This document shows, piece by piece, positions 2,057 through 4,929 of a stretch of 5,536 nt of DNA (position 1 is the stretch's first letter; each line of letters begins with the position of its first letter). A program made the translations under genes and the position numbers. The DNA comes from Candidatus Bathyarchaeota archaeon BA1. Lineage in GTDB: Archaea > Thermoproteota > Bathyarchaeia > Bathyarchaeales > Bathyarchaeaceae. Below the pieces are notes generated by a model. The model ran no database searches and was not told where the DNA came from. It saw only the letters and a program-made list of their open reading frames with translations. The stretch is taken from positions 1 through 5,536 of the forward strand of contig LIHJ01000024.1 in assembly GCA_001399805.1 (NCBI GenBank), read 5' to 3'.

Positions 2057-2064
2057 AATATGTT
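2057..2064 (+). repeat. Left target-site duplication AATATGTT
   Basis: AATATGTT occurs here and again at 3368-3375 in the same orientation, each copy directly outside one arm of the 29-bp inverted repeat. If the next base is counted, the shared word is the 9-mer AATATGTTT. In that case one non-duplicated base (G3367) lies between repeat and arm on the right side. This arrangement is what transposition with a staggered cut leaves behind. Confidence 0.65.
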
Positions 2065-2065
2065 T

Positions 2066-2094
2066 AGTTGACCTTAAATGTCAGTTCTAATTAT
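2066..2094 (+). repeat. Left terminal inverted repeat (29 bp)
   Basis: This arm begins AGTTGACCTTAAATGTCA and ends TAATTAT. It matches the reverse complement of 3338-3366 at 26 of 29 positions, and all three differences are transitions. Its core TGAC-N7-GTCA is itself nearly palindromic, a layout often seen in binding sites for dimeric proteins. Confidence 0.7.
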
Positions 2095-2118
2095 GTACGT
2101 TTCTGATCTTCCTTAAGC

Positions 2119-2322
2119 CTACGGTTTAATAGAGTAAGACCAAACTGCAATGAAGACCACGAGTAATATGACAACAACTAAGCCAGCTACGACCTCTGGA
2201 GTTACCATGCCGACGTACATCGTGTAGATTCCGAAACCAGCCACTAAACACGTCCAGAAAGCCTCTTCAAGCGGGAAAGGCTCCTCTCTGATTTTTCCCT
2301 TCAATTCTTTAATGTGGTGCAT
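2119..2322 (-). CDS. Small membrane protein with two transmembrane segments, 67 aa
   Basis: I do not recognise the family. The 67-residue product has a charged N-terminal tail (residues 1-19, with Lys and Glu clusters) and two hydrophobic segments, about 21-40 (AFWTCLVAGFGIYTMYVGMV) and 43-63, joined by a tight TPE turn. This suggests a helical hairpin in the cytoplasmic membrane with both ends on the same side. I chose the ATG at 2322 over the upstream TTG at 2334 because GAGGT lies just before it and it starts one base after the stop of the preceding gene, which indicates translational coupling. It is the last gene of the three-gene operon in the inverted-repeat element, and a two-helix partner for the preceding two-helix protein is plausible. 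Nothing in it suggests an enzyme. Confidence 0.6.
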   Translation of the reverse strand: MHHIKELKGKIREEPFPLEEAFWTCLVAGFGIYTMYVGMVTPEVVAGLVVVILLVVFIAVWSYSIKP

Positions 2323-2323
2323 C

Positions 2324-2617
2324 TTACCTCGCAATCACAAACAATAAGAGTGCTATGAGGCATGCCGCGGAAAGAAAGCTACCTAAAGTTAATGAAAAGA
2401 ATCCAGTTACCGTAGAGAATACGCATATAAAACTTAAAAGAGAAAGGACCCCAATTAATCCCTCATAAAACTCTTTTGGAGACCTTTTCCTCTTAATTAA
2501 TTCCTCTAACTCGGATATCCTTTCATTTAGGTGTGGCAATTCATTTTCACGCAGAACTTTAAGTTCAACCTCTAATTTTCTGATTCTACTTCTGAGATTC
2601 TCCTCAATAACCCTCAT
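2324..2617 (-). CDS. Coiled-coil protein with two C-terminal membrane segments, ~97 aa
   Basis: I do not recognise the family. Residues ~1-45 are strongly charged, with heptad-like leucines and isoleucines (IRKLEVELKVLRENELPHLN, then a Leu/Ile-rich stretch to Arg45), so a coiled coil is likely. Residues ~53-71 and ~76-95 are hydrophobic and would form two membrane helices, ending in FVIAR. The protein is therefore probably a membrane-anchored oligomer with its coiled coil in the cytoplasm. The frame extends to an ATG at 2644 that overlaps the preceding gene by 17 bases. I prefer the ATG at 2617, ten bases after that gene's stop, because AAGGGA lies 6-11 bases upstream. It is the middle gene of the operon: its stop is separated by one base from the start of the next gene. 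Confidence 0.6.
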   Translation of the reverse strand: MRVIEENLRSRIRKLEVELKVLRENELPHLNERISELEELIKRKRSPKEFYEGLIGVLSLLSFICVFSTVTGFFSLTLGSFLSAACLIALLLFVIAR

Positions 2618-2627
2618 GAATCTTCCC

Positions 2628-3050
2628 TTAAAGGGTATACTCATTTACTCTTATAAGAAACTTTCTGAGCTTTTCTTGATTATTAAGCTTTGCAGAGGCA
2701 CCAAGCGCTGCAAGAGGTCCCCAGTAGAAGTATGCAATAACGTATTTTTCTCCTTTCTCTTCTTCAATCCCCTCACTTATCATAGTGACCTTGCTCAAGG
2801 GAACTGTATGATAAAGGGAGATACTGCCTGCCTTAACTTCATAGCCAAATAATGCCTTCTCCGTTAATATGCAAAGGTCCATCAATGTCCCCTCAAAATG
2901 CTCCGAAGGAACTTCTGTAGTCACGTAATAGTCTATTACCTTTAAATCGCCGATTAACTCTTGAATTTCCTTACTGGCCACTTCAAAATTAAAGTCTATC
3001 TTTTCGCAAGCCTCTTTTAACTCAGAGAGGAGCGATCTTACTTTTTCCAT
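2628..3050 (-). CDS. Hypothetical protein, possible PH-like domain, 140 aa
   Basis: This is the first gene of the three-gene operon. Residues ~1-50 look helical (SLLSELKEACEKIDFNFEVA onward). Residues ~60-138 follow the pattern LCILTEKALFGYEVKAG..LYHTVPLSKVTMISEGI, then strand-rich sequence and a closing helix NNQEKLRKFLIRVNEY. 'Becomes-active strand, then PLSKV' followed by a final helix resembles bacterial PH-like (bPH) domains, which are small membrane- or protein-binding modules. That is a resemblance in pattern only, not a confirmed family. There is no signal peptide and no membrane segment, so it is probably cytoplasmic and could dock on the two membrane proteins encoded next. I chose the ATG at 3050 because AGGA lies 7-10 bases upstream and a TATA-like box lies about 38 bases upstream. 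A TTG at 3095 would add 15 residues rich in Lys, Ser and Gln. Confidence 0.6.
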   Translation of the reverse strand: MEKVRSLLSELKEACEKIDFNFEVASKEIQELIGDLKVIDYYVTTEVPSEHFEGTLMDLCILTEKALFGYEVKAGSISLYHTVPLSKVTMISEGIEEEKGEKYVIAYFYWGPLAALGASAKLNNQEKLRKFLIRVNEYTL

Positions 3051-3085
3051 TTTGAAATCCTGCAATTTTGCGCCTTTACAAGAAG

Positions 3086-3091
3086 ATATAG
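3086..3091 (-). promoter_or_regulatory. TATA-like box of the three-gene operon
   Basis: CTATAT on the minus strand lies about 38 bases before the ATG at 3050. With the usual archaeal spacing, transcription would start around 3062, leaving a ~12-base leader that contains AGGA at 3058-3061. No clear purine-rich TFB element was identified. Confidence 0.4.
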
Positions 3092-3120
3092 TCAAGTTTT
3101 CTAATAAAAGGATGCGGTTA

Positions 3121-3138
3121 CCCCCTTACAAGAGGGGG
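3121..3138. other. GC hairpin CCCCCT-TACAAG-AGGGGG
   Basis: A perfect six-base-pair stem with a six-base loop sits in otherwise AT-rich sequence, inside the inverted-repeat element and just upstream of its operon. It is not followed by a T run on either strand, so it is not a simple terminator. It could be a protein-binding site, a DNA hairpin or the edge of an older insertion. The rest of 3096-3438 holds the peptide fragment at 3171-3272 and the right end of the element, and I see nothing else in it. Confidence 0.35.
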
Positions 3139-3170
3139 CAAGTGCTAATTAACTACATTCATCATTTTCC

Positions 3171-3272
3171 TCATAAGCCATCTGCCTTCCCCCATAAGTT
3201 GGAATCGTATCCTTTATTTGAGAACTCGATAATTTCTTCACTTGTCACTATCTTGCTTTCATAATATACAAC
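3171..3272 (-). pseudogene. Short coding-like fragment, 33 residues without a start codon
   Basis: Between an upstream TGA (3273-3275) and a TGA at 3171-3173, the minus strand reads VVYYESKIVTSEEI, then IEFSNKGYDSNLWGKADGL. The composition looks like real protein, and an ATG in a neighbouring frame (MKAR-stop) could be its original start after a frameshift. 'SEE...NKGY' recalls the N-terminal part of archaeal tRNA-splicing endonucleases, but the match is too short to rely on. It may be a relic of a gene disrupted during assembly of the element. Confidence 0.2.
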
Positions 3273-3337
3273 TCAAGCCAGAGCTAAAACCCTACAAACT
3301 TAAGTAATACTTCAAGGGAGCAAGAGGATCGCATTCA

Positions 3338-3366
3338 ATAATTAAAATTGACATTTAAGGTTAACT
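3338..3366 (-). repeat. Right terminal inverted repeat (29 bp)
   Basis: On the plus strand this arm reads ATAATTAAAATTGACATTTA and ends AAGGTTAACT. It is the reverse complement of 2066-2094 except at three positions, all transitions. Both arms point inward, toward the cargo genes. Confidence 0.7.
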
Positions 3367-3367
3367 G

Positions 3368-3375
3368 AATATGTT
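3368..3375 (+). repeat. Right target-site duplication AATATGTT
   Basis: This is the second copy of the 8-bp direct repeat found at 2057-2064, one base outside the right inverted repeat. An intact ancestral site would have read about ATAAAATATGTTTTTGC. Confidence 0.65.
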
Positions 3376-3438
3376 TTTGCAGTTAGGCAAGATTAGGATT
3401 GGCTATCAACGGCTTCCTTTTAAAAAGGAGTTAAAACG

Positions 3439-3887
3439 TTAGGTTCTGTTGAAATCAGGGGCGTTGATGCTTCGGTGATGAGTTTGTTTTGTCCGTTTGG
3501 ATAGCCTTTCAACAATTTCTGTGTATTCTTTGACTTTTTCAATTTCTAACTCTTCCATTTCCAACCATCCTTCGTAAAATCCTATGCTGTGGAGGTGGTA
3601 GGCTCTGGATCCAAATCTATCACTTAAACCAAGTTGTTTGGCTTCTGGCACCTTTTTTCAAGCTCAACCAGTCCCTTTCTTCTTCCATCACCACTTTTAG
3701 GCCTCTCAAATCCATAGGACATCAAAAGGTGGTCTGTGGCTAAAACGGTAGCCAACCAAGCCTTTTCACATGCATCCCTAAAGAGCACCCTCTCTTTAGT
3801 CTCTATATGCCTTTGAAATTCCCGTTCTGCCTCTTCAAGTGCTTTATGAGCCTCTTCAAGAAGAGACAAGCTTACCACTACCTCCAT
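3439..3887 (-). pseudogene. PaREP1/HEPN-like protein split by a frameshift at an A6 run
   Basis: Two overlapping minus-strand frames make one protein. The first (3887-3624) gives MEVVVSLSLLEEAHKALEEA through RDACEKAWLATVLATDHLL to GLVELEK. The second (GTG at 3651 to 3439) continues with PEAKQLGLSDRFGSRAYHLH, then SIGFYEGWLEMEELEIEKVK. Together, with one extra A in the run at 3653-3658, they give about 149 residues, mostly helices. The amphipathic start, the 'ACEKAWLA' helix and the late 'RAYHLH..GFYEGWL' block fit the PaREP1/HEPN-type fold, and R-A-Y-H-L-H satisfies the RX4H pattern of HEPN ribonucleases. The break may be a sequencing error, true decay, or -1 slippage on GAA AAA AGG. The last ~15 residues (ending NAPDFNRT) may come from an inserted IS end. 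The ATG at 3887 is followed immediately by GGAGGT, so a TTG at 3869 is an alternative start. Confidence 0.6.
3442..3454 (+). repeat. Possible IS6-family terminus relic
   Basis: GGTTCTGTTGAAA closely resembles the conserved outer tip of IS6-family inverted repeats (GGTTCTGTTGCAAA as I recall it). It lies over the 3' end of the HEPN-like frame, whose last residues NRT are simply the repeat read backwards. No partner repeat or IS6 transposase is in the window, so this would be a solitary relic, and chance cannot be excluded. Confidence 0.25.
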
Positions 3888-4094: not shown

Positions 4095-4376
4095 ATGACA
4101 GCGTATGTGAAGGTTTTGTTGCACGCAGCCTTCAGGGAGATCGCTGGTGAGAGAGAAATTTTAGAGGAGGTTGGCTCGGGCTCTACCCTCAAAGACATTT
4201 TAGGTAGGTTGGGGAAACGATATGGGAAGGATTTTAACGAGATAATTGATTCGGAAACGGGGGAGATAAGCTCAGAAGTCCTCGTGATGGTGAATGGGAA
4301 AAGTGTTAGGAGGACGGACATCGAACTGAGGGATAAGGACACTCTGATGATCACTGTTCCTGTGGGCGGAGGCTGA
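4095..4376 (+). CDS. MoaD/ThiS-family sulfur-carrier protein, 93 aa
   Basis: A ubiquitin-like sulfur carrier. It begins with the beta strand YVKVLLHAAFREIAGERE (residues 4-21), typical of MoaD-like proteins. The middle helix SGSTLKDILGRLGKRYG carries the usual 'S-L-x-x-L' spacing, and then comes VLVMVNGKSV. The C terminus is LRDKDTLMITVPVGGG, ending in the di-glycine that is adenylated and thiocarboxylated by a MoeB/ThiF-type E1 enzyme. In molybdenum/tungsten cofactor synthesis the thiocarboxylate gives its sulfur to the dithiolene of molybdopterin; archaeal relatives also act as SAMPs in tRNA thiolation or protein tagging. At 93 residues it is a little longer than bacterial MoaD (~80), as is common in archaea. 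The stop touches the ATG of the zinc-ribbon gene, so the two form an operon. Which sulfur pathway it serves cannot be settled here. Confidence 0.85.
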   Translation: MTAYVKVLLHAAFREIAGEREILEEVGSGSTLKDILGRLGKRYGKDFNEIIDSETGEISSEVLVMVNGKSVRRTDIELRDKDTLMITVPVGGG

Positions 4377-4520
4377 ATGAGCGAGGTTCGATGCCTTAAC
4401 TGTTTGAAGAGGTTTCCTGTTGAGCTGAGAGCAGAGGAGGCCGCGTGCCCTTATTGTAAGATGAGGTACCGCATCTCCTGGCCCAGACCGGACCAGCCCA
4501 AAATTCGGGGACTGGCCTAG
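4377..4520 (+). CDS. Zinc-ribbon miniprotein, 47 aa
   Basis: The ATG follows the stop of the MoaD-like gene without a single spare base, so translation is probably coupled. The product has two CxxC knuckles, CLNC (residues 6-9) and CPYC (24-27), spaced 14 residues apart as in rubredoxin-like zinc ribbons. A basic, proline-rich tail follows, MRYRISWPRPDQPKIRGLA. This is almost certainly a tetra-cysteine zinc-binding fold. No catalytic domain fits in 47 residues. The tight pairing suggests that it works with the sulfur carrier, as an adaptor for its E1 or target enzyme or in sulfur handling, but that is inference. It is too short for many gene finders. After the stop the sequence becomes T-rich. 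Confidence 0.75.
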   Translation: MSEVRCLNCLKRFPVELRAEEAACPYCKMRYRISWPRPDQPKIRGLA

Positions 4521-4651: not shown

Positions 4652-4929
4652 ATGTTCGACTTGATTTTAAAGGGCGGTATTTTGATCGATGGTTCCGGAA
4701 ATCCCTGGTTTAAAGCGATTTGGCTGTTGAAAATGACAAGATAACATACATAGGCGATCTAAACTCAGCACGATCCCACGTTGGACATAACGTTAACCTC
4801 CATCTTAAGGATGGCCCCGTTATCGTCAATGTGCTCATCGCTGATGTGCGGCGGAGGGACAAGACGAGGCCTGGTGGATCCATCATAACAAACCGTGGGT
4901 TCCGCAGCTCTTCAATGCAATACACCTGA
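4652..4929 (+). pseudogene. Broken amidohydrolase (D-aminoacylase type) N-terminus fused to foreign sequence
   Basis: From the ATG the frame reads MFDLILKGGILIDGSGNPWF and then KA, the standard opening of N-acyl-D-amino-acid deacylase/dihydroorotase-like amidohydrolases. After Ala22 a one-base deletion (GCGAT where GCGGAT is expected) puts the frame into a stop at 4742-4744. In the next frame the family sequence resumes, DLAVENDKITYIGDLNSA. After that the similarity ends: there is no HxH metal motif (normally in PGFIDxHxH, some 30 residues later), and the remaining ~50 residues to the stop at 4927-4929 (for example VNLHLKDGPVIVNVLIADV and RPGGSIITNRG) do not belong to the family. They faintly recall an Lsm-like strand pattern, but I cannot confirm that. 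Intact family members have 480-550 residues, so this is a non-functional relic with a deletion junction near base 4772. Confidence 0.7.

Follow-up and report, generated by a model that had tools for sequence, protein, structure and literature searches.

Three small genes in this stretch of DNA lie between two inverted repeats with no recognisable transposase beside them, which raises the question of how they came to be there. The window analysed here is the whole stretch of 5,536 nucleotides. We conclude that positions 2065-3367 (1303 bp), referred to below as the unit, are likely a non-autonomous transposable element, namely a mobile insertion cassette without a recognisable transposase, with the family of the enzyme left open. 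On the evidence of the sequence, the three genes probably jumped into the site, helped by an enzyme encoded elsewhere.

Terminal repeats and flanking duplication

The ends of the unit and the bases directly outside them comprise the following features.

2057-2064, + strand: left copy of the putative 8-bp target duplication, AATATGTT, read from the sequence
2065-2094, + strand: left terminal inverted repeat, 30 bp, identical to the right arm at 26/30 positions
3338-3367, - strand: right terminal inverted repeat, 30 bp, from repeat search and sequence comparison
3368-3375, + strand: right copy of the putative 8-bp target duplication, AATATGTT, read from the sequence

The original prediction placed the arms at 2066-2094 and 3338-3366, with 26/29 positions identical and only transitions between them. 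Our comparison agrees, and the outermost base added here to each arm contributes a T/C pair as an extra mismatch in 30 bp. All four mismatches are transitions (T/C, G/A, G/A, C/T). Read inwards, the outermost base is T in the left arm and C in the right, and the arms start TAGTT and CAGTT. With a minimum of 100 bp between the arms, 30-bp inverted matches in 150 simulated first-order Markov windows were never better than 24/30 (two of the 150 windows), compared with 26/30 in the real window. An earlier simulation that imposed no distance rule returned 26 in 1/40 windows and 25 in 2/40; we attribute these matches to self-palindromes, which that run let in. When the arm core AGTTRACCTTAAATGTCA was searched with three mismatches allowed, it matched at the two ends only (2 matches, 0.01 expected). 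Folding of each arm by itself is weak (0 to -3.7 kcal/mol), and on this ground a reading of the arms as terminators was set aside.

The same 8-mer had been predicted to stand directly outside both arms in direct orientation, and AATATGTT does so at 2057-2064 and 3368-3375, the only two places where it occurs on the + strand of the window. At the local composition, the chance of an 8/8 flanking match is ~5e-5. AATATGTT is nearly its own reverse complement, which weakens the evidence for a target duplication and permits a second reading, a single inverted repeat of about 40 bp (2055-2094 / 3338-3377) that takes in the arms. Such a repeat might, for example, provide the two sites at which a site-specific recombinase would flip the operon, with the direct copies of AATATGTT as a by-product of near-palindromic ends. 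We consider this very unlikely. It is true that the repeat search gives arms of 40 bp at 85% and that the next 10 outer bases match at 8/10 positions when inverted, both mismatches being transitions, before the inverted repeat ends 10 bp beyond the arms. However, the direct repeat is perfect at 8/8, and a comparison of the ten outer bases favours a target duplication over the longer inverted repeat 4.6-fold when the duplication is assumed to have decayed to the same degree as the arms and 13-fold when almost no decay is assumed. Recombinase families were likewise absent from the 18 ORFs and peptides of the window that were scanned, and invertible segments are expected to have more nearly identical arms, which we also counted against inversion. 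The flank comparison therefore supports a target duplication, judging by these few bases, while falling short of proof.

Another account that would leave the operon unmoved has two solo repeats of one family landing in opposite orientation round resident genes. Solo inverted repeats are recognised as IS-related objects in the relevant passages of PMC3129680, and no further arm copy was seen in the window or the genome contigs that would settle the matter. This account needs the 8-mer to match by chance (~5e-5), and it offers no reason why the arms should bracket the operon so closely, which makes it highly improbable in our estimation.

Insertion of the unit as a cassette would proceed as follows. 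A DDE-type transposase from another element in the same cell would bind the two arms, cleave the DNA at their outer ends, and join the cassette to the target with an 8-base staggered cut, the repair of which would yield both copies of AATATGTT. The insertion site is AT-rich, and the two genes beside it converge on it with their 3' ends, so the event could have left every gene intact. The transposition footprint proposed in the original prediction is thus borne out by the arms together with the 8-bp direct repeat.

Genes carried between the arms

Three genes and a hairpin were identified inside the unit.

2119-2322, - strand: cargo gene 3, 67 aa, with one strong hydrophobic segment (residues 44-62), from its ORF and hydrophobicity
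2324-2617, - strand: cargo gene 2, 97 aa, with a charged helical N-terminus and two hydrophobic segments (54-72, 78-96), from its ORF, hydrophobicity, a model, and homologues
2628-3050, - strand: cargo gene 1, 140 aa, with a predicted PH-like fold after two N-terminal helices, from a model (pLDDT 60) and homologues
3114-3145, + strand: stable hairpin upstream of the operon, ~-18 kcal/mol as RNA, from folding

The starts adopted for the cargo genes are 2322, 2617, and 3050, of which the last two are also the starts of database relatives. With these starts the genes are separated by gaps of 10 and 1 bp, and this tight packing of three minus-strand ORFs supports the reading of the cargo as a three-gene operon. 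Homologues of genes 1 and 2 are rare: besides the window's own, three were found for gene 1 and three for gene 2, at 57-68% identity. Those of genes 1 and 2 are probably neighbours elsewhere, as P0002 and P0032 both have a jgi contig of 5162 bp as their longest, and the cargo consequently looks like a working unit. No Rfam match was found up to E 1, the hairpin at 3114-3145 included.

The protein of gene 1 is predicted, at low confidence, to be PH-like. A PH-like domain is a beta-sandwich of seven strands with a C-terminal helix as its cap. The gene 1 model, built from 4 sequences, has seven strands and a final helix at a low-confidence pLDDT of 60, and its top fold matches are mostly PH domains. 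Eukaryotic PH domains score as high for this low-confidence model as the bacterial PH-like domains of PF08000 (3dcx, 3hsa). A search of Pfam returned no PH family for the gene 1 protein or its three homologues, and PDB returned no sequence match. In the viral fold library, the best match was a Geobacillus phage protein at E 0.0014, with none at E <=0.001, and two named bacterial PH domain proteins were in the first four. The passages of PMC2817789 that treat the role of bacterial PH domains speculate that they form ring-shaped end pieces of membrane-associated assemblies. By analogy this would suit a membrane-complex cargo, yet it is no evidence for the gene 1 protein itself.

For gene 2, the model reached a pTM of 0.29. 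Pfam gave DUF2721 at E 0.00071 and 19.9 bits, under the cut-off of 28.3, and this assignment was dropped when the homologues P0032-P0034 did not repeat the match. The best PHROGs match was phrog_21949 (unknown function), at E 0.00097 over a 15-residue stretch of P0032, and PADLOC returned nothing below E 0.02. Genes 1 and 2 had no match in plasmids, and gene 2 had none in phages. In viral contigs, the cargo alignments gave 142 and 16 pattern-matching stretches, none of which was confirmed.

Taken with the hydrophobicity profiles, the predicted fold of gene 1 suggests, at a lower level of support, that the cargo may be an operon for a small membrane-associated complex, in which the PH-like protein would be the soluble part beside two membrane proteins. 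The description of the cargo as a "small membrane system" accordingly stands for the two products with strong hydrophobic segments, while the complex itself is suggested by the predicted fold and hydrophobicity.

Genomic setting

On either side of the unit lies a gene that points at it.

1098-1991, + strand: nucleotidyltransferase-like gene, 297 aa, left neighbour
3439-3887, - strand: PaREP1/PaREP8-like gene in two overlapping frames (3439-3651, 3624-3887), right neighbour

With the genes on both sides running towards the unit, an operator role for the arms is unlikely, and that reading was rejected on gene orientation. The objection that an operator would make no sense at the left arm is thus supported.

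The 297-aa protein belongs to a small family, with 27 database matches at E <=0.001. Pfam matches the protein itself weakly, PF01909 is present in several homologues, and PDB gave two weak matches to nucleotidyltransferases. Of its homologues, the one with a source name, P0029, comes from a Bathyarchaeia genome and is 71% identical over 54% of the query, which makes Bathyarchaeia the probable host. To the right, the two PaREP1/PaREP8-like frames match different parts of PF05942 at E 0.005, below cut-off, and the probable cause is a disrupted gene or a frameshift introduced by sequencing.

Third-position codon GC was 0.57-0.67 for the dehydrogenase gene, the ThiS-like gene, and the zinc-ribbon gene, compared with 0.36 in the nucleotidyltransferase gene, 0.36-0.53 in the cargo, and 0.32 in a 118-aa gene. 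These values suggest an AT-rich accessory stretch in which the cargo resembles its immediate neighbours.

Further along the window, a ThiS/MoaD-like gene (PF02597, 46.7 bits) is followed with no gap by a 47-aa zinc-ribbon ORF (4095-4520, + strand). This ORF (4377-4517), which lies outside the unit, matches the IS91 transposase zinc-binding domain at E 0.049 and 14.1 bits (cut-off 26.3) and is matched better by other zinc ribbons. Peptides at 4652-4929 on the + strand, which look like the N-terminal part of an amidohydrolase split between two frames, had no Pfam match. The sequence GGTTCTGTTGAAA at 3441-3453 presumably resembles the ends of IS6-type elements, and no partner for it was found within the window.

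Search for a transposase and for further copies

Across the 5.5-kb window, a selection of 18 ORFs and peptides (10 + 8) was scanned for transposase families in Pfam, and none was over cut-off, in agreement with the original prediction of a unit with no transposase. One alternative is that the unit was once autonomous and has decayed, with the gene-poor segment 3051-3337 as the remnant of a lost or eroded transposase gene. The ~290 bp upstream of gene 1 do indeed hold no good ORF. The peptides scanned from this part of the unit (two on the minus strand at 3152-3272 and one on the plus strand at 2968-3261), however, match no Pfam transposase family, although short pieces may escape such a scan. 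We regard decay from an autonomous element as quite unlikely.

Returning to the unit as a cassette moved in trans, we looked for other copies of its ends. An arm 24-mer had 0 matches in the genome contigs, which says little because the flanking gene likewise has no confirmed relative there: the nucleotidyltransferase alignment gave 250 pattern-matching stretches in the genome contigs and 53 in the viral contigs, none of them confirmed. Among the viral contigs, an arm 18-mer matched once, unpaired, in contig L001, whose ORFs suggest to us that it comes from a bacterial phage. A search of L001 for the DUF2721 family found nothing, and as a second arm copy the match was discounted as chance, being single and unpaired. 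The DNA of the window had no match in plasmids and phages. No second copy, empty site, or partner transposase thus came to light in these searches, and the case for a cassette rests on one locus.

Within the cassette explanation, the enzyme could be an ISH6-like transposase of the Mutator superfamily, a proposal we find unlikely. In the relevant passages of PMC3942029, the ISH6 duplication consensus over 39 junctions is AANATNTT, which AATATGTT fits, and prokaryotic Mutator-like elements are reported to have inverted repeats 18-39 bp long and 8- or 9-bp duplications, ranges that include the arm length and the 8-bp duplication found here. Also in favour, the motif is expected ~4 times per shuffled window, so that a random site fits ~1 time in 1400. 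However, the fit of AATATGTT to AANATNTT was noticed only post hoc, when the consensus was already known.

We compared the unit directly with ISH6, taking as reference the transposase on pNRC200, which was confirmed by NCBIfam (387 bits, cut-off 240). The sample comprised 10 copies, all haloarchaeal, one each from 10 of the 33 matching plasmid records. Their left ends read GGTC in 10/10 copies and their right ends in 9/10 (one has GATC), and none resembles YAGTTRACC. Matching 8-bp duplications were present in 5/10 copies, and only one of these five, AAAATGTT, fits AANATNTT exactly, which makes the consensus a loose feature. Two of the remaining five copies are cut off at the record end, and three have differing flanks. 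Because the ends of these ten haloarchaeal copies are quite different from those of the unit, we did not file it under ISH6. The Pfam scan of 18 ORFs and peptides showed no ISH6-type transposase over cut-off; an enzyme acting in trans would lie elsewhere. The conserved terminal cytosine of the superfamily is present in at most one arm, the passage describing it being silent on the strand (PMC3942029).

Comparison with known elements

If the unit is real, it shows that a small operon in an archaeon can be moved by a transposase encoded in another element, and its arm and target can be searched for in uncultured Bathyarchaeia. It would also draw attention to a rare, functionally uncharacterised operon, and mobility would suggest that the benefit it confers is an accessory one. 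A broader and rather improbable extension is that some archaeal transposase, possibly of the Mutator superfamily, moves whole intact operons between its arms in Bathyarchaeia, which would be a prokaryotic equivalent of the non-autonomous Mutator elements that carry genes. The cargo, a small complex of membrane and PH-like proteins, might in that case serve as a portable system for defence or against envelope stress.

Among archaeal elements, ISM1 of Methanobrevibacter has a 29-bp repeat and an 8-bp duplication. The ISH6 family (p-MULT 2) shares archaeal hosts and an 8-bp duplication with the unit, whose ends differ completely from those of the ten copies compared and which has no recognisable transposase. 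As described in the relevant part of PMC3942029, the family comprises insertion sequences only, and a cargo-bearing member would therefore be new.

A mobile insertion cassette is defined in the corresponding passage of PMC3913671 as a segment enclosed by a pair of inverted repeats, with no transposase in its vicinity and, as a rule, with a target duplication. In the unit we found arms identical at 26/30 positions, the target duplication AATATGTT with its palindrome caveat, three passenger ORFs, two of them with homologues elsewhere, and no transposase inside or nearby, where nearby extends to the window ends. The cassette arrangement is already known from bacteria. "Undescribed", as the unit was first called, consequently applies to the repeat sequence, as far as searched, and not to the kind of element. 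The pertinent section of PMC3129680 groups mobile insertion cassettes and MITEs with solo repeats as IS-related objects, some of which can be activated by a cognate transposase. In the literature searched, as far as its available text extends, we found no description of an archaeal mobile insertion cassette, though one may still be in print.

The closest parallels have the same layout. MIC231 of Bacillus cereus and the qnrD mic elements, in the passages describing them, likewise consist of inverted repeats round passenger genes with a target duplication and no transposase gene. MIC231, unlike the unit, has a known cognate transposase (IS231A), according to the relevant passage of PMC3913671. 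The unit differs from both in residing probably in Bathyarchaeia, in carrying a three-gene operon, and in having ends that match no element compared. Short non-coding elements described in part of PMC10969869 from several archaea also have terminal inverted repeats, a target duplication, and no transposase, whereas the unit is 1.3 kb long and carries three genes.
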